Source: Planctomycetota bacterium
GTDB lineage: Bacteria > Planctomycetota > UBA1135 > UBA2386
Length of the DNA: 64,000 nt
Reading direction: 5' to 3'
Assembly (NCBI GenBank): GCA_016235155.1
Contig: JACRLW010000071.1
Location: 20,258-84,257, forward strand
The notes beneath the pieces were generated by a model. That model was not told the origin of the DNA. It made no database searches and saw only the letters and a list, made by a program, of their open reading frames with translations. Made by a program: the position numbers and the translations under genes. This document shows positions 3,070-42,943 of the stretch, in pieces. Position 1 is the stretch's first letter. Each line of letters begins with the position of its first letter.

Positions 3070-3183
3070 GTGCGAGCCGACCCAGACCTGGCGATGATGG
3101 TCGAGGCGTGGGCGCGCCTGCCGAAGGCGCTTCGCGACGGGATCGTGGCGATCGTGAAGGCTGCTAGCGCTTCGTACCCTTGA
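3070..3183 (+). pseudogene. 37-codon remnant resembling the C-terminal tail of a tyrosine recombinase
   Basis: The frame from GTG encodes VRADPDLAMMVEAWARLP followed by KALRDGIVAIVKAAS. This 'DPDLAxxVEAWxxLPxxxRxGIxAxV' pattern is what I recall at the extreme C-terminus of integrases in planctomycetes and related bacteria. No recombinase catalytic region precedes it, so it would be a degraded leftover. It overlaps the 3' end of the oppositely oriented ribbon-helix-helix gene. The assignment rests on memory of a short pattern and is weak. Confidence 0.35.
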
Positions 3184-3379
3184 GCATCTGCTGCGCGCGC
3201 TCGATGCGATCACGCAAGCTGTCCTGGAACTGTCGATCGTGGGTGCGACGCTCAATGTGCTCGGTGATCGCGGCGCGAATGATCTCGGAGACGGGCTGGT
3301 TGTCGACCGTTGCTACCGTCTCCAGCTGCTCCGCTTGCTCGTTCGAGAGCCGGATCGTCATCGCTTTCGCTGGCTTCAT
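3164..3379 (-). CDS. Ribbon-helix-helix DNA-binding protein, likely autoregulator of the ubiquitin-like operon
   Basis: A 71-residue protein beginning MKPAKAMTIRLSNEQAEQLE. It has a short basic strand (AMTIRLS) and two helices (NEQAEQLETVATVD, QPVSEIIRAAITEHIERR), the ribbon-helix-helix fold of CopG/ParD/Arc-type repressors and antitoxins. A charged C-terminal helix follows. The ATG at 3379 is preferred over longer frames, which run into the divergent promoter and are not protein-like. RHH proteins bind short palindromes as dimers of dimers. A perfect palindrome lies 26 bases upstream, on the shared -35 region with the divergent operon, so autorepression and control of that operon are likely. 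No toxin partner is adjacent. Confidence 0.8.
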   Translation of the reverse strand: MKPAKAMTIRLSNEQAEQLETVATVDNQPVSEIIRAAITEHIERRTHDRQFQDSLRDRIERAQQMLKGTKR

Positions 3380-3404
3380 GCCGGTAGTTTGCCACGGATA
3401 CTTC

Positions 3405-3419
3405 GTGCTTGTCAAGCAC
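3405..3419. promoter_or_regulatory. Perfect 15-bp palindromic operator between the RHH gene and the ubiquitin-like operon
   Basis: GTGCTTG-T-CAAGCAC is a perfect inverted repeat with one central base. It contains TTGACA reading toward the RHH gene and TTGTCA reading toward the ubiquitin-like operon, so one bound repressor could close both promoters. The RHH protein encoded next door is the obvious ligand. This is inferred from position and symmetry. Confidence 0.6.
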
Positions 3420-3438
3420 CCTGGTCTCTTGGTATCGT
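3409..3438 (+). promoter_or_regulatory. Predicted sigma-70-type promoter of the ubiquitin-like operon
   Basis: TTGTCA (-35), an 18-base spacer and TATCGT (-10) precede the first gene. They imply transcription from about 3445 and a leader of about 20 bases. A strong ribosome binding site, GGAGG at 3455-3459, lies six bases before the ATG. On the other strand the perfect -35 TTGACA (3415-3410) faces a poor -10 in front of the RHH gene. Confidence 0.5.
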
Positions 3439-3465
3439 GGTGTCTTCTAGCCACGGAGGCAACGC

Positions 3466-3777
3466 ATGAACGAATCCAACCCAGAGGCAGGCGCCCCGCA
3501 GGGAGGGCCGCATCACCACGAGTTCCAGATCCAGATTGATCGGGTCCACTACACGGTTGCGCAGGAGCGGATGACCGGATCCGAGATCCGCCGCGTACCG
3601 CCGACACCCATCGGCCCCGAGCGAGATCTCTTCGAGGTCGTCCCCGGTCATCCCGACAACAAGGTCGACGACAACGAGGTCATCGAGATCCGGAACGGGA
3701 AGCGCTTCTTCACGGCGCCTGGGACCATCAACCCGGGCTCGGTGTCCATCCATCTTCGCACGTCGGCAGAGCGATGA
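3466..3777 (+). CDS. Ubiquitin-like modifier, Multiubiquitin family, single beta-grasp domain
   Basis: A 103-residue protein. After a His-rich, flexible N-terminus (about residues 1-20), residues 22-90 form one Multiubiquitin-type beta-grasp domain. Its conserved features are FQIQIDRVHYTV, the MTGSEIRRV helix, PIGPERDLFEVVPG, and EVIEIRNGKRFFTAP followed by INPG. It is predicted to be the protein tag conjugated by the downstream E1 and E2. The C-terminus does not end in Gly-Gly; about a dozen residues follow INPG, so maturation by the operon's JAB or ClpP-fold protease is plausible. Start and GGAGG spacing are excellent. The E2 start overlaps its stop (ATGA). Confidence 0.85.
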   Translation: MNESNPEAGAPQGGPHHHEFQIQIDRVHYTVAQERMTGSEIRRVPPTPIGPERDLFEVVPGHPDNKVDDNEVIEIRNGKRFFTAPGTINPGSVSIHLRTSAER

Positions 3778-4166
3778 GCCTACCAGAAGCCGACGCACTG
3801 TACCTTGCCACTCGCGGCCTACTCCACGAGATTGCCACCGAGTCGAACATGACGTGCATCGTGTTCCGGAACTGGCAGCTTCCCCCGGGCTACGACCGCG
3901 CCTCGGCAGACCTCTTGATCCGCCTTCCTGGTGGTTATCCCGACGTCCCACCCGACATGTGGTGGATCCACCCAGGCATCAAGTTGGCTAATGGGCAAGT
4001 CATCCAGGCCACCGAAGTTGTTGAAACTCATCTCGGTCGATCCTGGCAGCGGTGGTCGCGACACTTCCAGCCGGGTCAGTGGAAGCCAGGCATCGATGGC
4101 GTTGAGAGCTTCCTTGCGTTGATCGGCCGGGAACTGCATCGCTGGGTGCCGGAGCCCGTCCGATGA
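3774..4166 (+). CDS. E2-like ubiquitin-conjugating protein (Prok-E2_E family)
   Basis: A 130-residue protein with the bacterial E2 family E pattern: WQLPPGYDRASADLLIRLP, GGYPDVPPDMWW (the 'YP..PP' core of the UBC fold), IHPGIKL, and the family-specific RSWQRWSRHFQPGQWKPG with a C-terminal helix. It should carry or position the ubiquitin-like protein between E1 and target. The only cysteine is Cys28, near the N-terminus. The place where classical E2s have the active cysteine, after the HPG turn, has none. It is translationally coupled on both sides by ATGA overlaps with the modifier and the JAB-E1 gene. Confidence 0.85.
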   Translation: MSLPEADALYLATRGLLHEIATESNMTCIVFRNWQLPPGYDRASADLLIRLPGGYPDVPPDMWWIHPGIKLANGQVIQATEVVETHLGRSWQRWSRHFQPGQWKPGIDGVESFLALIGRELHRWVPEPVR

Positions 4167-5550
4167 CCACGACGCTTGTACTTCCGCTCGAACGCTCGCC
4201 CTGCTCTGCGAGGACGCCTTCTTCGCGCTCGCCGGCACAGGGCGCCTCGACGTCGACGTCCTGCGCGCCCTCGCGGGCCGAATCCTCGAGCGGCCCGACG
4301 CGGAGTCCCCGCCGCTGCCCGACGCTGCGTACACCCTTCGCGAACCAGACGCACTCAAGATCGCGTCGGAGGGATACGTCCCCGCCCTCCAAGACGCGGA
4401 GCAAACCGGGTGTGTAGCTCTCTGGCTTCACACGCATCCTGGGATCGGTGCCTCGCCATCGCCAAGTCGCCTGGACCAGATCGTTGATCGGCAGCTCAGC
4501 GACCTCTTCCGTCTCCGTACCAGTAGCGAACTCTACGGCAGCGTCATCGTTGCCCATGACCAAGGTCAGATCATCTTCTCCGGGTTCCTTGAGAACGCAG
4601 CTGGCCGATGGCCGATCGACTACCTTTGGATAGTCGGGGATCGTTTTCGCCTTGTCTCGAACGTCGACACGACGGCGACCTCGCCGCTTCCTCATGAGTT
4701 TGATCGAAACATCCGCGCCTTCGGTGGTGATGTCCAGCAGGTCCTCCAACGCCTGCACATCGCGGTCGTCGGCTGTGGTGGCACGGGTTCGGCAGTCGCG
4801 GAACAGCTGATTCGGCTCGGCGTCCGACGGCTCACCCTTGTCGATCCTGATACCCTGTCTTTGAGCAACGTGACACGGGTCTACGGATCCACTCTTGCGA
4901 CGGTTGGTCAACCCAAGGTCTCTGTGCTTCGCGATCACCTTCGTCGTATCGTTGACGGACTCAGCATTACGTGCGCTCCCACGATGGTCACCGTGGAGCA
5001 CGCAGCTCGCCAACTCACGGATGCAGACGTCGTCTTTGGGTGCACTGACGACAACGCCGGTCGGGTCGTGTTGTCGAGGCTATCCACGTACTTCCTGCTT
5101 CCTGTCATTGACTGTGGAGTACTGCTCGAAAGCGCAACCGGTGGACGTCTCTCGGGCATCCACGGGCGTGTAACTGTACTTCACCCAGAGGCAGCCTGCC
5201 TGCTGTGCCGAGGTCGCATCGACCTCGATCGCGCGCGAACCGAGCTCTTCACTCCGTCCGAACGCACACGTCTGGAGCATGAGGGCTATGCCCCAGCCCT
5301 CGGGGCTGTCGAGCCTGCGGTTGTCGTCTACACGACCATGGTGGCCGCGGCTGCGGTAGGCGAACTTCTCGAGCGACTCATACACTACGGCCCAGAGGAT
5401 AGGCCATCGGAGATCCTACTCCGCATACACGATCGTGAAGTCTCCACGAACAACGCCCTACCCAAGCCTCGACACTACTGCCACTCCACTTCAGGGAAGC
5501 GTGGGGCAGGCTTCACTTCTCCCTTCCTGGACTTGACATGGCAGGCGTAG
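4163..5550 (+). CDS. JAB deubiquitinase-E1 (ThiF) fusion, with an apparent frameshift near its start
   Basis: The ATG in the ATGA overlap opens MTTTLVLPLE, but the conserved frame is one base back from about 4190. It then runs uninterrupted from 4192 to the stop, giving about 462 residues if joined. The first half is a JAMM/JAB metalloprotease domain: LWLHTHPG gives the His-x-His, followed by a Ser-x2-Asp 10 residues on, two longer than usual. The second half is an E1-like ThiF domain: VVGCGGTGSAV nucleotide loop, VDPDTLSLSNVTRV, GQPKV, GCTDDNAGR, one Cys-x2-Cys zinc pair (CLLC) and a degenerate second pair (HYCHS), and a terminal PFLDLTW. No cysteine is seen at the usual E1 catalytic loop. 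Without joining the frames, only a TTG start at 4861 remains and the JAB half is lost. The frameshift may be a base error. Confidence 0.8.
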
Positions 5551-5900
5551 CGCGCATCCGCTGGTGGCAGTGGATTCCTTGGCCATGGCGAGGTTGGCGC
5601 GTCATCGCAACGGTCGACGCCGGCGACGAGATACCTGCTAGTCTTCCGTACAAGTCTGCGATACTTGTGTCGCTAGGAGGAACCCCAACCTGGATCGCTT
5701 TCGACTGCCCCTGCCGACGCGGCCACCGCATCATGCTCAACCTGTATCCAGGACGATCTCCCGCATGGGCCTTGCAGGCTCACCGGCGTCTGACACTCAG
5801 CCCGAGTGTTGACGACTCCACGCGGGACCGTCGATGCCACTTCTTCCTTCGCAGGGGCATAGTAGAGTGGGCTCCCAACGGCCGGAGGCACGACACATGA
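5538..5900 (+). CDS. DUF6527 family protein of the ubiquitin-like operon
   Basis: A 120-residue protein whose start overlaps the JAB-E1 gene by 13 bases. Conserved elements are LVSLGGTPTWIAFDCPCRRGHRIMLNL (a Cys-x-Cys...His group that looks metal-binding), a TLSPSVDDS turn, and RRCHFFLRRGIVEW near the C-terminus. DUF6527 is a small family I recall beside E1/E2/ubiquitin-like genes in bacteria; its function is unknown. The context suggests an adaptor, ligase-like factor or substrate-recognition subunit, which is inference. Its stop overlaps the next start (ATGA). Confidence 0.75.
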   Translation: MAGVARIRWWQWIPWPWRGWRVIATVDAGDEIPASLPYKSAILVSLGGTPTWIAFDCPCRRGHRIMLNLYPGRSPAWALQAHRRLTLSPSVDDSTRDRRCHFFLRRGIVEWAPNGRRHDT

Positions 5901-6844
5901 CCGACCCGAATCTAGAGGGCAGCCCAGTCCCCCACGATGACCAGCAGAAGCTCGTCAGGGAGTCGGTAGTTCCACCTCCGACGAAGACACCCTTCTACCA
6001 GGCTATTCACTCCGCGCGCTACCAGCGACAAGCGATCATCAAGCGCATTCAGGAGCGAACGCATCGCAGGTTCATCTGCTACGTGTGTGGAGGACTGAGT
6101 GCGATAGACCGCGACGATACGGTTGGATTCGTCGATCTCTTGCACAACGTTGCTGAGGGCGCCGATCTCGATCTGCTCCTGCATACCGGTGGTGGAGACA
6201 TCGATGCGGCGGAGAAGCTCATCACGATGGTTCGTACGAGGGTAGGCCTCGCGGCCCTTAGAGTCATCGTTCCTGACTTCGCCAAGAGCGCCGGAACTCT
6301 CATGGTTCTGGGCGCCGATGCCGTCGTCATGAGCGATACGTCAGAGCTTGGCCCCATTGATCCCCAAGTCATCCTGGCTGATGGCAATGGCAATCGGATC
6401 CGTCACTCTGTCCAGAGCTACCTCGACGCATACGAAGAGCACACGACCACGCTCGCGAGAACCCCTCATGATATCGCCGCGCGGATCATGCTGAGCAAGC
6501 TCGACCCAGCAACCGTGAAGTTGTTCCAGGCGGTTCAGGACCGGGCGCGCAGGTTCGCGGAGGATCAGCTCACACGAGGGATGTTCCGTAAGGCTGGCAA
6601 CGCAACTAGCGCTGCAAAGGAACTGATTGACACGAAGCGATGGCAATCCCACGGTCAGATGATATCTTGGGCGGACGCATGCGACTCTCGGATTGGACTC
6701 AACGTCGAGTACCTGAAGCCAAAGTCAGATGAGTGGCAAGAGTACTGGCAACTCTACTGCATGCAACGTCTAGCCGTCGCTGATAGACAGAAGCTCTTCG
6801 AATCCGACTACGCTTCACTGCTCATCGATAGCACGTCATCGTAG
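5897..6844 (+). CDS. ClpP-fold serine protease (SppA / serine dehydrogenase proteinase-like)
   Basis: A 315-residue protein. The ATG in the ATGA overlap is preferred over a longer frame starting 63 bases earlier. The core follows the SppA/SDH-proteinase pattern: LDLLLHTGGGDIDAAE (strand plus oxyanion Gly-Gly-Gly, residues 92-106), VIVPDFAKSAGTLMVLGAD with the nucleophile Ser131 in Lys-Ser-Ala-Gly-Thr, and MSDTSELGPIDPQV after it. A helical C-terminal region with a QSHGQMI segment follows. Proteases of this kind recur in bacterial ubiquitin-like operons, where they may process the modifier precursor or remove it from targets. There is no transmembrane segment or signal peptide, so it should be cytosolic. 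It is the last gene of the operon. Confidence 0.8.
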   Translation: MTDPNLEGSPVPHDDQQKLVRESVVPPPTKTPFYQAIHSARYQRQAIIKRIQERTHRRFICYVCGGLSAIDRDDTVGFVDLLHNVAEGADLDLLLHTGGGDIDAAEKLITMVRTRVGLAALRVIVPDFAKSAGTLMVLGADAVVMSDTSELGPIDPQVILADGNGNRIRHSVQSYLDAYEEHTTTLARTPHDIAARIMLSKLDPATVKLFQAVQDRARRFAEDQLTRGMFRKAGNATSAAKELIDTKRWQSHGQMISWADACDSRIGLNVEYLKPKSDEWQEYWQLYCMQRLAVADRQKLFESDYASLLIDSTSS

Positions 6845-7437: not shown

Positions 7438-8622
7438 TCAGTGCGCGACGCGATGCAGCATGAGCACTTCCATGCTTCCCGAGCGCCCCTGTCGAACACG
7501 GTGGTACCACTTCCTGTTATGCACGCACCGTTGGATTCTCGTGGGCTCGCCTGACGGTAGCCGCAGAGGCTCGAACCCGGCTCGCTCCATCATCTCTTCG
7601 TATCGCGGCACCTGGGTGTCAGCGTCGGAGAACCCAACCAGCTGGGCGACGACAGCCTTCGGGTCGATCACACAACGAACGGAGGAGAACGCTCCTTCCA
7701 TTGTCTCGAAGTAGTTCGAAATGCCCGTGGGCGTCCTGCTTCCTGCCGTGTAGTAGCTTGCTGGCGAGCCATCCTGCAGGCCAGCGATATGGTAGGGTGC
7801 AGCAGTCTCTCTCCTTCCTTTGTACTGCCATCGGTGGTAAAGGACATGCACCCCGGGGTAGGGTGGTGATGTCAAGACGAGCTTCGGCTGGCAGTCCATG
7901 CGCATCAGTGCCCCGTGCTCATCAATCCCGACGCTTGATCGGTTGAGCAGCACCCTTCGGCCACGGATCTTGTTCTTCGCAACGCCTGCGTGTCGACATG
8001 ACATGGCGAGGTCATCCAATCCCGCGATCATCTGCTCGCCAAGGATGCGGAGCTGCTCGACGAGTCGCCTCTGTGAAGGAACCTGAGCCTCTCTGCAATC
8101 AAGCGCCCACTGTCCCAGACGCAGGATGAGGCAACGGGCGAACGCTTCCTGTCGTCGCTTGCTCAGTAGGCCGACGAGGAGCAACGCTGCGGACACAAAC
8201 CGATCGAGGCATGCCGGCATGTTGTGCACGCGCATCGGCGGAATGCGCGAAGCGAGCGACCCTGACAAGATCAGACACGCGTCATCCAGCCATCCGCGAA
8301 GCGACACCTCATCTGCCGAGCTCAGCGGCGATGTACGGACCTCGGTGACGAAGTGGGCCAGGGCGTTGATGTCCACGCCGATCATCCTTCGGCCCACGGC
8401 AAGTCCTTCGACGATCGACGTGCCTCCCCCCATGAACGGATCGAGCACCCAGTCGTTCGGCCTGCTCAGGAGCTCGATAATCGTGCGTGCGATCTCAGGC
8501 GAGAACCGAGCAGGGTAGTGGTAGAAGTCGTGCGTGAGCCCGTTGATGTAGCTCCCGGACGCCAGGCTCTCTTGAAGCCGTTGGAGGTCAGGGACGCCCC
8601 GGCTCAGGACCGCGTGCGCCAT
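7438..8622 (-). CDS. DNA methyltransferase (N6-adenine or N4-cytosine type)
   Basis: A 394-residue protein from the ATG at 8622, chosen because AAGAGG lies upstream and the conserved region starts just after it. An in-frame ATG at 8817 would add 65 poorly protein-like residues and overlap the divergent gene. The SAM-binding motif I is VLDPFMGGGTSIVEG (about residues 57-71). The catalytic motif IV is LVLTSPPYPG (about 249-258). The order I then IV, with about 180 residues between, fits an alpha- or gamma-class amino-methyltransferase. The ThDFYHYPARFSP lead-in is typical of the family. No restriction endonuclease is adjacent, so it may be an orphan or part of a defence module with the divergent ATPase. 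Confidence 0.85.
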   Translation of the reverse strand: MAHAVLSRGVPDLQRLQESLASGSYINGLTHDFYHYPARFSPEIARTIIELLSRPNDWVLDPFMGGGTSIVEGLAVGRRMIGVDINALAHFVTEVRTSPLSSADEVSLRGWLDDACLILSGSLASRIPPMRVHNMPACLDRFVSAALLLVGLLSKRRQEAFARCLILRLGQWALDCREAQVPSQRRLVEQLRILGEQMIAGLDDLAMSCRHAGVAKNKIRGRRVLLNRSSVGIDEHGALMRMDCQPKLVLTSPPYPGVHVLYHRWQYKGRRETAAPYHIAGLQDGSPASYYTAGSRTPTGISNYFETMEGAFSSVRCVIDPKAVVAQLVGFSDADTQVPRYEEMMERAGFEPLRLPSGEPTRIQRCVHNRKWYHRVRQGRSGSMEVLMLHRVAH

Positions 8623-8758
8623 CGAGTGAACCGCCTCTTGGTTGCCAACCGCCAGCCATGGTACCAGCTTGGGCACCCCCGGTTCCACCCTCCCCGAAGG
8701 AAAAACAGCGACGAAGTGAGGTCGCACCAACAACTTGCGTCGAGCCGCCCGTTTTCGC

Positions 8759-8788
8759 TTGATCTTCGCTGTAGAGTGCCTGTAGATT
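8759..8788 (+). promoter_or_regulatory. Predicted promoter giving a possibly leaderless transcript
   Basis: TTGATC, an 18-base spacer and TAGATT lie just before the ATG at 8795. A start site seven bases after the -10 would fall on the A of that ATG. No ribosome binding site is present in between. Leaderless initiation is an inference; an internal ATG at 8804 is the alternative. Confidence 0.4.
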
Positions 8789-8794
8789 CCTGGT

Positions 8795-9430
8795 ATGTCC
8801 AGGATGCGGCGCGCCACAGAAGTCCTTGCCGCAGCCGAGTCCGCGCTGCGTGACTTGATGTCAGAGGGTCTGCGCGAGAAGGCGTACGCGGAGGTGGCTG
8901 AGCTGGCAGGCCTTGCCGACGCACTCGCGAAGTTCCTGAAGGACCGCGGAACGCCGCTGCCAGCGGAACCGGAGGCTCAAGCATTGCCGCACGATGAACT
9001 GCCTCCGGCAACCTCTCCGGCTGCGCCAGCACCTGCACCATCTCGCGGAGCGAGACGACCGCTCGGAAAGCGCGACTTTCCTCGGTTCGAGCGAGACGGT
9101 GACAAGCTCGTGAAGCTCGGATGGTCCAAGAAGAACAGGGCGCAGTACGAGCACAAGGCGCCGCGTCCAGCCGTTGTTGCTGTGGTCCAGCAGATGGCAC
9201 GCGTCGTCAAACCAGATCATGTGTTTGGAATCGAGTCGCTGCTCCCGGTGACCGACGCCGCTGGTGAGGAAGTCCCAGGGTACCAGGTCTACTTGACGAT
9301 GGCGTGGTTGCGCAGCCTTGGCGCCGTGCAGAAGAAAGGGCGTGATGGGTATGTCGTGCGCAAGCATGCCGCCACGAATGGAGCATTCGACGACGTCTGG
9401 GGCCGCGTATCTGCAAAGAGTCTGGGATAG
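8795..9430 (+). CDS. Unknown protein preceding the GHKL ATPase
   Basis: A 211-residue protein in three parts. There is an N-terminal helical segment (residues 1-50, TEVLAAAESALRDLMSEGL), a Pro/Ala-rich linker (about 60-85), and a C-terminal domain of about 120 residues beginning RRPLGKRDFPRFERDGDKLV and ending with a helix-turn-strand pattern (VYLTMAWLRSLGAV, GRDGYVVRKHA). I do not recognise the family; the C-terminal part could be winged-helix-like. It ends eight bases before the ATPase gene, whose ribosome binding site overlaps its stop codon, so the two are coupled. Confidence 0.7.
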   Translation: MSRMRRATEVLAAAESALRDLMSEGLREKAYAEVAELAGLADALAKFLKDRGTPLPAEPEAQALPHDELPPATSPAAPAPAPSRGARRPLGKRDFPRFERDGDKLVKLGWSKKNRAQYEHKAPRPAVVAVVQQMARVVKPDHVFGIESLLPVTDAAGEEVPGYQVYLTMAWLRSLGAVQKKGRDGYVVRKHAATNGAFDDVWGRVSAKSLG

Positions 9431-12040: not shown

Positions 12041-12240
12041 CACACTCCCGTCCGACGAGACCAGATCCTGGCCCCAACCCGTGACCACCTGTTCGTCAGC
12101 TATGCAAGTGAGGACGCGGCGTTTGCACAGTGGCCCACGCTTCGTCTGACTGCAGCGGGTTACAAGGTCTGGTGCGACCAGATCAAGCTGCTGGGTGGCG
12201 AGTCCTACCCCGTCGATATCGACGCTGCCATATGGACACG
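12041..12240 (+). pseudogene. TIR domain fragment without start codon
   Basis: In the frame open from 12041, translation gives DHLFVSYASEDAAFAQW, LRLTAAGYKVWCDQIKLL and GGESYPVDIDAAI. These are the N-terminal half of a bacterial TIR domain, including the Glu expected for NAD+ cleavage. No ATG, GTG or TTG lies between the upstream stop and the domain. Similarity fades just after DIDAAI, where the sequence passes into a different gene's frame. The second half of the TIR fold and any effector partner are missing. Confidence 0.7.
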
Positions 12241-12873
12241 CAAGTTCCGCTGCAGCAGCTCGTCGATGACTTCGCTCGCTACCTCTACCTGCCGAGGATG
12301 CGAGACCCGGCTGTCGTGGCCGGCGCCGTGCGCGAGGGGCTAGGCCTCATCACCTGGATGAAAGACTCGTTCGCGTTTGCGGATGCGTACGACGAGGCCG
12401 CTGGCCGCTATCAGGGTCTGCGGGGTGGGCGAAACGTCCCAATCCCCGAGACCGACTTTCCTGGCCTACTCGTTCAGTCGGAGGTGGCGAAGAGCCAGCT
12501 CGACAAAGAAGCTATCCCTGAGCCGACTGCCGGCCGATTGACGACATCGGCGCCGCCAGCCGGAGACCCTGCTGCGCCCAACGGCGGAACCGCGGGAGGA
12601 GCGGTCCAGGCCACAACTGCACCCGCCGAGCAACCGAAGCCACGGCGCTTCCACGGCAGCGTGGTTCTCGATGCTGCGCGCGTCGGCCGCGATGCCAGCC
12701 GCATTGCCGACGAGGTCATCTCGCACCTGGCCGGCCTTGTGGGCGCCAAGGTCCGCGTGACGCTTGAGGTTGAGGCTGAGGTCGGTAACGGGGTGCCCGA
12801 CAACGTGGTGAGAACGGTCACCGAGAACAGCCGCACGTTGAAGTTCACCGACCACGGCTTCGAGACAAGCTGA
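12232..12873 (+). pseudogene. C-terminal remnant of a DUF499-type ATPase, fused out of frame to the TIR fragment
   Basis: A 213-codon frame from an ATG encodes VPLQQLVDDFARYLYLPR, GLITWMKDSFAFADAYDEA and GRYQGLRGG. After a Pro/Ala/Gly-rich linker it continues RFHGSVVLDAARVGRDASRI and ends NVVRTVTENSRTLKFTDHGFE. This is what I recall as the C-terminal quarter of large DUF499 ATPases found in modification and defence loci. The AAA+ part is absent. A deletion apparently joined the TIR gene to it near 12232. It might still be translated as a small protein. Confidence 0.65.
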
Positions 12874-41437: not shown

Positions 41438-42943
41438 ATGATGCATCCGCGAGCGATGTCCACCCCCCCGCCCAAGCCGTGGTCTCCGATCGAGGATCTC
41501 AGCGATGGTCTCCGGACCGAACACGATCCGGAACTCCGGACGCTGACGACCCAGTGGCAGTCGCGGAAGGACGAGTTGAAGACCAGTGCCGCGCTGCGGA
41601 ACTTCCAGCAGCGCTTGGTGCGACGGTGGAGCGTCGAGACCGGCATCCTGGAGCGGCTCTACACGCTGAACGAAGGTGTGACGCTCACGCTCGTGGAACT
41701 GGGCTTCGACGCGGCGTACCTCTCGCACGGCGACTCCGACCTGCCACCGGCGCGACTGATCGAGATCCTCGAGGATCACCGCGAGGCCGCCGAAGGGCTC
41801 TTCGCCTTCGTCCGCCAGGGCCGGTCGCTCACGGAGTCCTACATCAAGGAACTCCACCAGCAGTTGTTGGCTCACCAGACCCACGCCGACGCGATCGACT
41901 CGCTCGGCCACGCGGGCCGGGTTCAGGTGCTGAAGGGTGCCTGGAAGATCCAGCCAAACAACCCCAGCGACCGCGTCACGAGGCAGGTCGTGCATTTCTA
42001 CTGCCCACCCGAGCATGTCGGCAGCGAGATGGAACGGTTGGTAGCGATGCATGCTCGACACATTGCGGATGGCGTCAGCTTCGACATCGAGGCGGCGTGG
42101 CTCCACCATCGTTTCACGCAGATCCATCCGTTCCAGGACGGCAACGGCCGCGTCGCGCGGGCGCTTGCGACCCTCGTCTGCTTGCGCGCCGGAGCCTTTC
42201 CGCTCGTCGTTCTGCGCAGCGACAAGCCGGCCTACATCGGGGCTCTGCACTCCGCCGACGGCGGTGACCTGAAACCGCTCGTCGAGTTGTTCCGTTCGAT
42301 CGAACGCCGTGCGTTCCTGGAAGCGATGTCGCTCGCATCGGACACGATCCGCGAAACGACGTCGCTTCGGGTGATCGCAGAGGAAGCGAAGCGTCGCATG
42401 CAGGCCGCCGAGCACGAGCGCTCGGCACAACTGCGTGAACGCATCGAGGTCGTCCAACGCCTCGCGCAGGCCTACGTCGAGGAGCAAGGACGCTCTTTCC
42501 AGGTTCTGGCGGGTCCGGACGTCCGGCGCATCCGCTCCGAAGTCTCCGTCGACGACGACGAGCATCGGCACTGGTTTCGCGGGCAGATCTCCCGCTGCGC
42601 GCTCGTCCTGGGCTACTTCGCGAACCTCGTCGCCGTGAACCACTGGGTGCACTTCAAGATCACCTCCGTGGCGATCGGGACATCCACCAGCGTCATCGTC
42701 GCGATCCACACGCTCGGTCGCGGGCGCATCGACATCGCTGCGGTGAGTGCCTTCGTGACGCAGCGCTCTTCGAGCCAGTCCGGCGACGACGCGGATGTCG
42801 AGCCTTGGTCCGTGAAGCCAGCTTGCGACTCTCCCTTCACGTTCGACGGTGGATGGGACGTCGACACGCTGGCCAAGTCCTTCGATCGGTGGCTCCGGAC
42901 AGCGATCGATCGCGCCCTGCAGATCTGGCTCGACTCGCTCTGA
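41438..42943 (+). CDS. Fic family protein (AMPylation or related nucleotidyl transfer)
   Basis: A 501-residue protein. The start at 41438 is chosen because GGAAG lies seven bases upstream; ATGs at 41441 and 41456 are alternatives. The Fic core is intact: IHPFQDGNGRVARALATL carries the catalytic His and the anion-binding loop HPFxDGNGRxxR. Upstream, RRWSVETGILERLYTLNEGV resembles the N-terminal inhibitory helix region of this Fic subgroup. A C-terminal region of about 250 residues beyond the Fic fold, including a coiled segment, has no recognised domain. Fic proteins modify target proteins with AMP or similar groups. Confidence 0.88.
   Translation: MMHPRAMSTPPPKPWSPIEDLSDGLRTEHDPELRTLTTQWQSRKDELKTSAALRNFQQRLVRRWSVETGILERLYTLNEGVTLTLVELGFDAAYLSHGDSDLPPARLIEILEDHREAAEGLFAFVRQGRSLTESYIKELHQQLLAHQTHADAIDSLGHAGRVQVLKGAWKIQPNNPSDRVTRQVVHFYCPPEHVGSEMERLVAMHARHIADGVSFDIEAAWLHHRFTQIHPFQDGNGRVARALATLVCLRAGAFPLVVLRSDKPAYIGALHSADGGDLKPLVELFRSIERRAFLEAMSLASDTIRETTSLRVIAEEAKRRMQAAEHERSAQLRERIEVVQRLAQAYVEEQGRSFQVLAGPDVRRIRSEVSVDDDEHRHWFRGQISRCALVLGYFANLVAVNHWVHFKITSVAIGTSTSVIVAIHTLGRGRIDIAAVSAFVTQRSSSQSGDDADVEPWSVKPACDSPFTFDGGWDVDTLAKSFDRWLRTAIDRALQIWLDSL

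Follow-up and report, generated by a model that had tools for sequence, protein, structure and literature searches.

A Bub-type ubiquitin-like conjugation operon with a divergent RHH regulator, conserved promoter repeats and an SDH-type protease in a metagenome-assembled bacterial genome

The stretch of DNA analysed here (hereafter the window; 64,000 nucleotides, positions 20258-84257 of its contig) belongs to a 5.34-Mb genome assembled in 152 contigs, 85.5% complete, and carries a bacterial operon for ubiquitin-like protein conjugation. Six genes lie at positions 3164-6844 (Table 1): a ribbon-helix-helix (RHH) regulator on the reverse strand and, on the forward strand, a ubiquitin-like modifier (Ubl), an E2-like protein, a fusion of a JAB domain with an E1 domain (JAB-E1), a DUF6527 protein and a ClpP-fold protease. 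With the corrected starts, genes overlap by 4-13 nucleotides (nt) at four of the five operon junctions. The gene set, its order and its orientation agree with the original prediction made for this DNA; the description of the operon as "complete" is unsupported for the copy in the window, since its JAB-E1 gene is not intact in the assembly. The planctomycete origin that had been proposed is plausible, with 13 matches to PSCyt2, a hallmark of that phylum, and no 16S found.

Table 1. Features of the operon region in the window, and Fic-domain genes of related loci (aa, amino acids)
Feature	Position	Strand	Remarks
RHH (CopG/RelB-like) regulator	3164..3379	-	71 aa, divergent from the operon; DUF6290 9.6e-8
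Predicted promoter/operator	3409..3445	+	TTGTCA (3409-3414), then three tandem 8-bp repeats (3422-3445)
Repeats of the window	3422-3445		TGGTCTCT-TGGTATCG-TGGTGTCT
Predicted RHH target			TTGTCA...TGGTATCNTGGTATC
Ubl modifier	3466..3777	+	103 aa; a single beta-grasp domain; C-terminal INPG followed by a 12-residue tail
E2-like protein	3774..4166	+	130 aa; lacks a conserved Cys; WQRWSRH (Ser95) invariant
JAB-E1 fusion gene with disrupted 5' end	4163..5550	+	ThiF 1e-38; BubCD 8e-23; JAMM HTHP...SRLD; body frame open from 4165
Anomalous GC-rich stretch in JAB-E1	4187..4308	+	122 nt in place of the conserved JAB N-terminal region
DUF6527 putative metal-binding protein	5538..5900	+	120 aa; FDCPC...GHR...CH; Pfam DUF6527 6.7e-19
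SDH-type ClpP-fold serine protease	5897..6844	+	about 315 aa; Pfam SDH_protease 5.5e-13
Fic-domain genes of related loci	L007:5789-6373, L008:5700-6278, L011:5688-6272, L015:1046-1624, L016:5561-6145, L028:3066-3644, others		

The operon is a Bub-type ubiquitin-like conjugation operon of class 6e. Its identification as such, together with the DUF6527 protein and the ClpP-fold (SDH-type) protease, is borne out by matches to Pfam families and to BubB and BubCD. In the profile searches, the proteins were placed in Prok-E2_E, ThiF, DUF6527, SDH_protease and, weakly, Multi_ubiq, while the JAB domain was not reported by Pfam and was recognised through alignment with relatives and BubCD. The BubCD match spans both the JAB and the E1 domains, and the fusion is intact in the relatives. 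The E2-like protein falls within the E2 family as predicted (Prok-E2_E, 8.2e-38) and matches Citrobacter BubB at 6e-14. Across 22 aligned E2s there is no invariant cysteine, the E2 of the window holding a sole, non-conserved Cys28; the motif around Ser95 is invariant in the same 22 sequences and has YQRWSRH as its counterpart in BubB. In Bub, a serine reportedly replaces the E2 cysteine.

The Ubl is matched less clearly by its family profile (Multi_ubiq, 4.6e-4; 20.8 bits, under the curated 24.5). Nevertheless, the predicted beta-grasp assignment holds despite this weak score, because the AlphaFold2 model of the protein, with a core at a predicted local distance difference test (pLDDT) score of about 90, matches BubA-type structures. 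The top match in the PDB is 9d5a, a Citrobacter multi-ubiquitin protein (E 8e-5, root-mean-square deviation 1.3 A). Multi-ubiquitin proteins of Citrobacter, Methylobacterium and E. coli lead the list of solved matches, in which BubA, as present in the BubCD-BubA complex, takes rank 9. We thus regard the BubA-type beta-grasp fold of this modifier as settled at the level of the model.

In class 6e, as defined by Iyer et al. 2006 (PMC1779556) and now named Bub, one to three Ubl domains accompany a Cys-less E2/RWD-like domain, a JAB domain fused to the N-terminus of the E1 and a small protein that putatively binds metal. Neither the single-domain Ubl nor the JAB-E1 fusion is therefore unusual, contrary to what had been suggested: the number of Ubl repeats and the fusion are already given for that class, and a Rhizobium phaseoli plasmid encodes a Ubl of single-domain size. 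With the Citrobacter system (BubA/BubB/BubCD and DUF6527), the operon of the window has in common the Ubl, the Cys-less E2, the DUF6527-type metal-binding protein, a sporadic distribution and an occurrence on plasmids; the JAB at the E1 N-terminus is shared by the intact relatives and is disrupted in the copy of the window. In contrast to it, the operon of the window adds a ClpP-fold SDH-type protease and a separate single-domain Ubl, and has a divergent RHH gene with a repeat operator in place of CapW, CapH/P or CapK/S. For 544 Bub operons the published regulators are CapW or CapH/P in 219 and CapK/S in 59. A Citrobacter freundii plasmid operon contains multiubiquitin, ThiF and DUF6527 genes and an upstream regulator of the winged helix-turn-helix (HTH) type, with no protease and no RHH, and HTH and ImmA-type genes precede several other Bub operons. 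The unusual part is, as had been noted, the protease and the RHH together, and the locus draws its interest from the regulator, the promoter repeats and the protease of its sub-lineage; the single-domain Ubl and the JAB-E1 fusion do not contribute to it.

Other known systems were considered. Bil operons (BilABCD) also unite a Ubl, an E1, an E2 and a JAB; their E2 has a catalytic cysteine and their JAB is a protein by itself. Membership in Bil is rejected, as the E2 of the window has no conserved cysteine and its JAB is fused to the E1 rather than stand-alone. Anti-phage action, which the earlier proposal raised for some Bub/Bil-type pathways, has been shown for Bil and not for Bub. The E1 also has distant homology to Cap2/Cap3 of type II cyclic-oligonucleotide-based anti-phage signalling systems (CBASS; PADLOC E1-E2 models, 2e-19). 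Unlike these, the operon has a separate E2 and its own Ubl, with no CBASS effector, and Pfam and PADLOC scans of its genes found no nucleotidyltransferase (CD-NTase). A CBASS assignment, for which there were generic E1 matches alone, was rejected.

Across 84,980 species genomes scanned, 21 related loci (numbered with the prefix L) were recovered, with E2 identities of 46-61%, in Proteobacteria, Acidobacteriota, Spirochaetota, Gemmatimonadota and Actinomycetota. All six genes are found in the same order in 18 of these independent relatives, beyond what chance would give; the RHH gene is missing in L022, and both the RHH and the protease genes in L006 and L019. Among 72,556 plasmid records, seven carry E1 relatives at 55-59% identity, the others being at about 35% or below; RHH relatives are confined to exactly those seven records, and protease relatives above 48% identity occur in exactly the same seven. 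The co-occurrence on plasmids and the synteny in the genomes tie the RHH regulator to the cassette, as predicted. In the E1 tree, the sub-lineage is one well-supported clade (100/97, or 100/99 without the long-branched L037); to the E1s of other Bub operons, the E1 of the window has an identity of just about 25-35%. Phyla are intermixed within the clade, the neighbours of the E1 of the window being those of a spirochaete and an acidobacterium. The genome sampled from the same genus lacks the E2, and any form of it was found in just four other genomes of 199; no E2 relatives were found in phages. Horizontal transfer is the natural reading of this distribution.

The RHH protein matches RHH_1 at 2.7e-5 (24.4 bits vs a cut-off of 20.5) and resembles RelB-type antitoxins; the alignment of 19 orthologues indicates that its start is most likely at 3379 rather than 3607. 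In nearly all RHH-positive loci, TTGTCA followed by tandem 8-bp TGGTATCN repeats in a fixed phase is found 5' of the Ubl gene, with 7 or 15 nt (15 = 7+8) between the two parts, or 14 nt in L011. Shuffled sequences almost never reach as good a match to this element, which is absent from all three RHH-less loci. Its form varies: TTGTCG is found in L005, repeats without TTGTCA in L029, and a partly inverted form based on GATACC...GGTATC in L010 and L011. In the genome of the window, the exact double repeat has a single occurrence, and allowing one mismatch adds just the third repeat, which overlaps it, and a single further site. Because the repeats overlap the expected -10, the simplest model, predicted from these sequence features, is that RHH represses the operon through them. 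As a separate observation, the 3' end of the RHH gene is overlapped by a short open tail (3082-3181, +; VRADPDLAMMVEAWARLPKALRDGIVAIVKAASAS...) that looks like a C-terminal gene remnant.

From these results, we consider it likely that the operon of the window is a horizontally acquired Bub operon (class 6e) of a distinct sub-lineage, whose marks are a divergently encoded, predicted RHH repressor and an SDH-type protease added to the operon. Some observations weigh against this. L022 has the protease without the RHH and L037 the RHH without the protease, so these two genes are not inseparable. At the promoter, L018 keeps TTGTCA with weak repeats, and the diverged L037 has neither TTGTCA nor recognisable repeats. 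To these is added the Ubl score that falls short of its curated cut-off.

The start of the protease is most likely at 5897, at an ATGA overlap (315 aa), rather than at 5834. Its candidate nucleophile is Ser152 (336-aa numbering) in AKSAGT; this motif and SELG.IDPQ are conserved in the family, and the SAGT region is invariant. The protease profile matches PH1510-N (3bpp) at 5.7e-7, and the protein matches NCBIfam Clp_like_SDH at 7e-17, far under the 250-bit cut-off of that family. The SAGT nucleophile region and a SELGPIDPQ-type motif are shared with the SDH-type and PH1510-N (NfeD) proteases; unlike these, the protease of the window belongs to its own subfamily tied to the operon. Viral contigs encode distant proteases of the same fold, with about 33% identity along most of the protein, and no Bub core was found beside these proteases, except for a DUF6527-like frame in L049 (L049:2045-3957), where such a protease lies close to this frame and without other Bub genes. 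In DUF6527, residues C57, C59, H63, C100 and H101 are invariant in 22 rows. Its model (mean pLDDT 81) has no significant match among solved folds, so that an adaptor or ligase role for this protein is a guess.

The JAB-E1 gene of the window is disrupted at its 5' end. The first ATG, GTG or TTG in its frame is the TTG at 4861, which lies 3' of the ATP-binding loop, and a start there would drop GCGGTGS. The ATG at 4163, overlapping the E2 stop, is the start used by the relatives and likewise encodes MTTTLVLP, but its frame differs from that of the JAB-E1 body. Within the anomalous stretch the GC content rises up to 0.74, vs about 0.60. A profile made from the JAB N-termini of the relatives, with the window left out, found no match to the family in this stretch in any frame: in the frame of 4163 it matched just the eight residues MTTTLVLP, not significantly, and in that of 4165 it matched at model positions 49-109 (4e-27), homology resuming at about 4309. 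The replaced stretch removes the region with the conserved ETAG, which we take to be the JAMM glutamate of the JAB fold. When a donor was sought in the same genome, just short weak matches were retrieved. A one-base slip at the start of the gene is ruled out, as all of the stretch is non-homologous in every frame, and the near-expected length of the stretch (122 vs about 120 nt) led us to discard a deletion of about 22 nt. Pairing EDAFFALAG without gaps with the conserved ETAGVLLA was also rejected (6/26 identical by eye, no profile support).

Because of this disruption, the JAB-E1 copy of the window is probably non-functional or mis-assembled and is unsuitable as a functional reference. That the disruption is an artefact of the metagenome assembly, the operon being intact and functional in the organism, is a serious possibility that falls somewhat short of an even chance. 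The fragmentation of the assembly and the intact, conserved state of the remaining JAB-E1 and of all other operon genes speak for it. On the other hand, the altered part is some 122 bp long, GC-rich and unrelated in sequence, more than a one-base slip, and a genuinely decayed copy of this sub-lineage is known: in L029 (Microbacterium plasmid pSGAir0570_2, 4302-7483), the E1 and the protease are each split over several frames while the RHH and the repeats persist. The broken gene, the operator and the tight co-distribution had been missed by the original prediction; the gene content, homology, linkage and conserved promoter repeats, like the frame disruption, are directly supported by the analysis.

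How such a pathway might work can be outlined, every biochemical step, the repressor function of RHH and the role in physiology being what we infer. RHH, bound to the tandem GGTATC repeats that cover the Ubl promoter's -10, would hold the operon off until some signal. The JAB (or the protease) would then trim the Ubl precursor to ...INPG. This motif is invariant in 22/22 Ubls and is followed by 1-26 further residues; therefore, the precursor needs cutting if its glycine is activated, the JAB being the obvious cutter and the SDH protease the alternative. The E1 domain would adenylate the INPG glycine, and the Cys-less E2 could hand the Ubl to targets either through the serine of the invariant WSRH or by holding the Ubl in position. 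The JAB may remove the tag again, DUF6527 could be a metal-binding accessory and possibly a substrate adaptor, and the protease might act on tagged proteins or on the Ubl precursor.

The boldest version of this scheme, in which the sub-lineage encodes a self-contained tag-and-destroy pathway, with a Cys-less (serine-based) cascade, products cut by a dedicated ClpP-fold protease, an RHH switch and frequent wiring to a Fic toxin pair, seems unlikely to us. A simpler role for the protease, not as a downstream effector but as the main enzyme of Ubl processing or deconjugation in an ordinary pathway of reversible modification, is a credible though doubtful alternative: all Ubls require trimming after INPG, and PH1510-N, the nearest relative with a solved structure, cleaves at specific sites, but every relative already has a JAB fused to its E1, and Bub operons without the protease share the same JAB-E1 design. 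We find it very unlikely that the cassette is a toxin-antitoxin-like addiction module, in which RHH would be the antitoxin-type regulator of a linked Fic pair and the Bub genes its cargo. This idea draws on the resemblance of RHH to RelB-type antitoxins and on a Fic-domain gene lying directly beside RHH in 12 of the 21 loci and on several plasmids, with a gene of about 70 aa recurring next to Fic (in eight loci). However, Fic is absent beside the operon of the window and from nine of the 21 loci, and it occurs in both orientations, whereas the operator is located at the promoter of the Ubl gene. Far from the operon, the window has a weak Fic-like match (41999-42283, +; 33% over 100 aa, 1e-12).

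No other widely recurring flanking genes were found among the 21 loci. In the window, a DNA methyltransferase of the N6/N4 type (7438-8817, -; Pfam 5e-14; PADLOC MTase_II) lies just 3' of the operon, and an apparently truncated PLD-type gene (2610-2972, +), covering 117/236 positions of phrog_9329 at 1.7e-61, lies upstream of RHH. Further away, positions 12130-12873 (+) match the C-terminal part of the defence protein HmaC (positions 734-940 of 941, PADLOC 1e-37), no other component of that system being identified, and the C-terminal part of a family A DNA polymerase (1-903, +; Pfam 1.1e-10) is found at the edge of the upstream masked N run.

We did not find the sub-lineage, its promoter repeats or the Fic linkage described in the literature accessible to us, which does not include the principal papers on Bub (Gong 2025, Ye 2026). 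In that literature, the control of Bub operons is ascribed to CapW, CapH/P and CapK/S alone. The regulator of the sub-lineage, its short predicted operator and the linked protease provide a testable handle on the role of Bub pathways.

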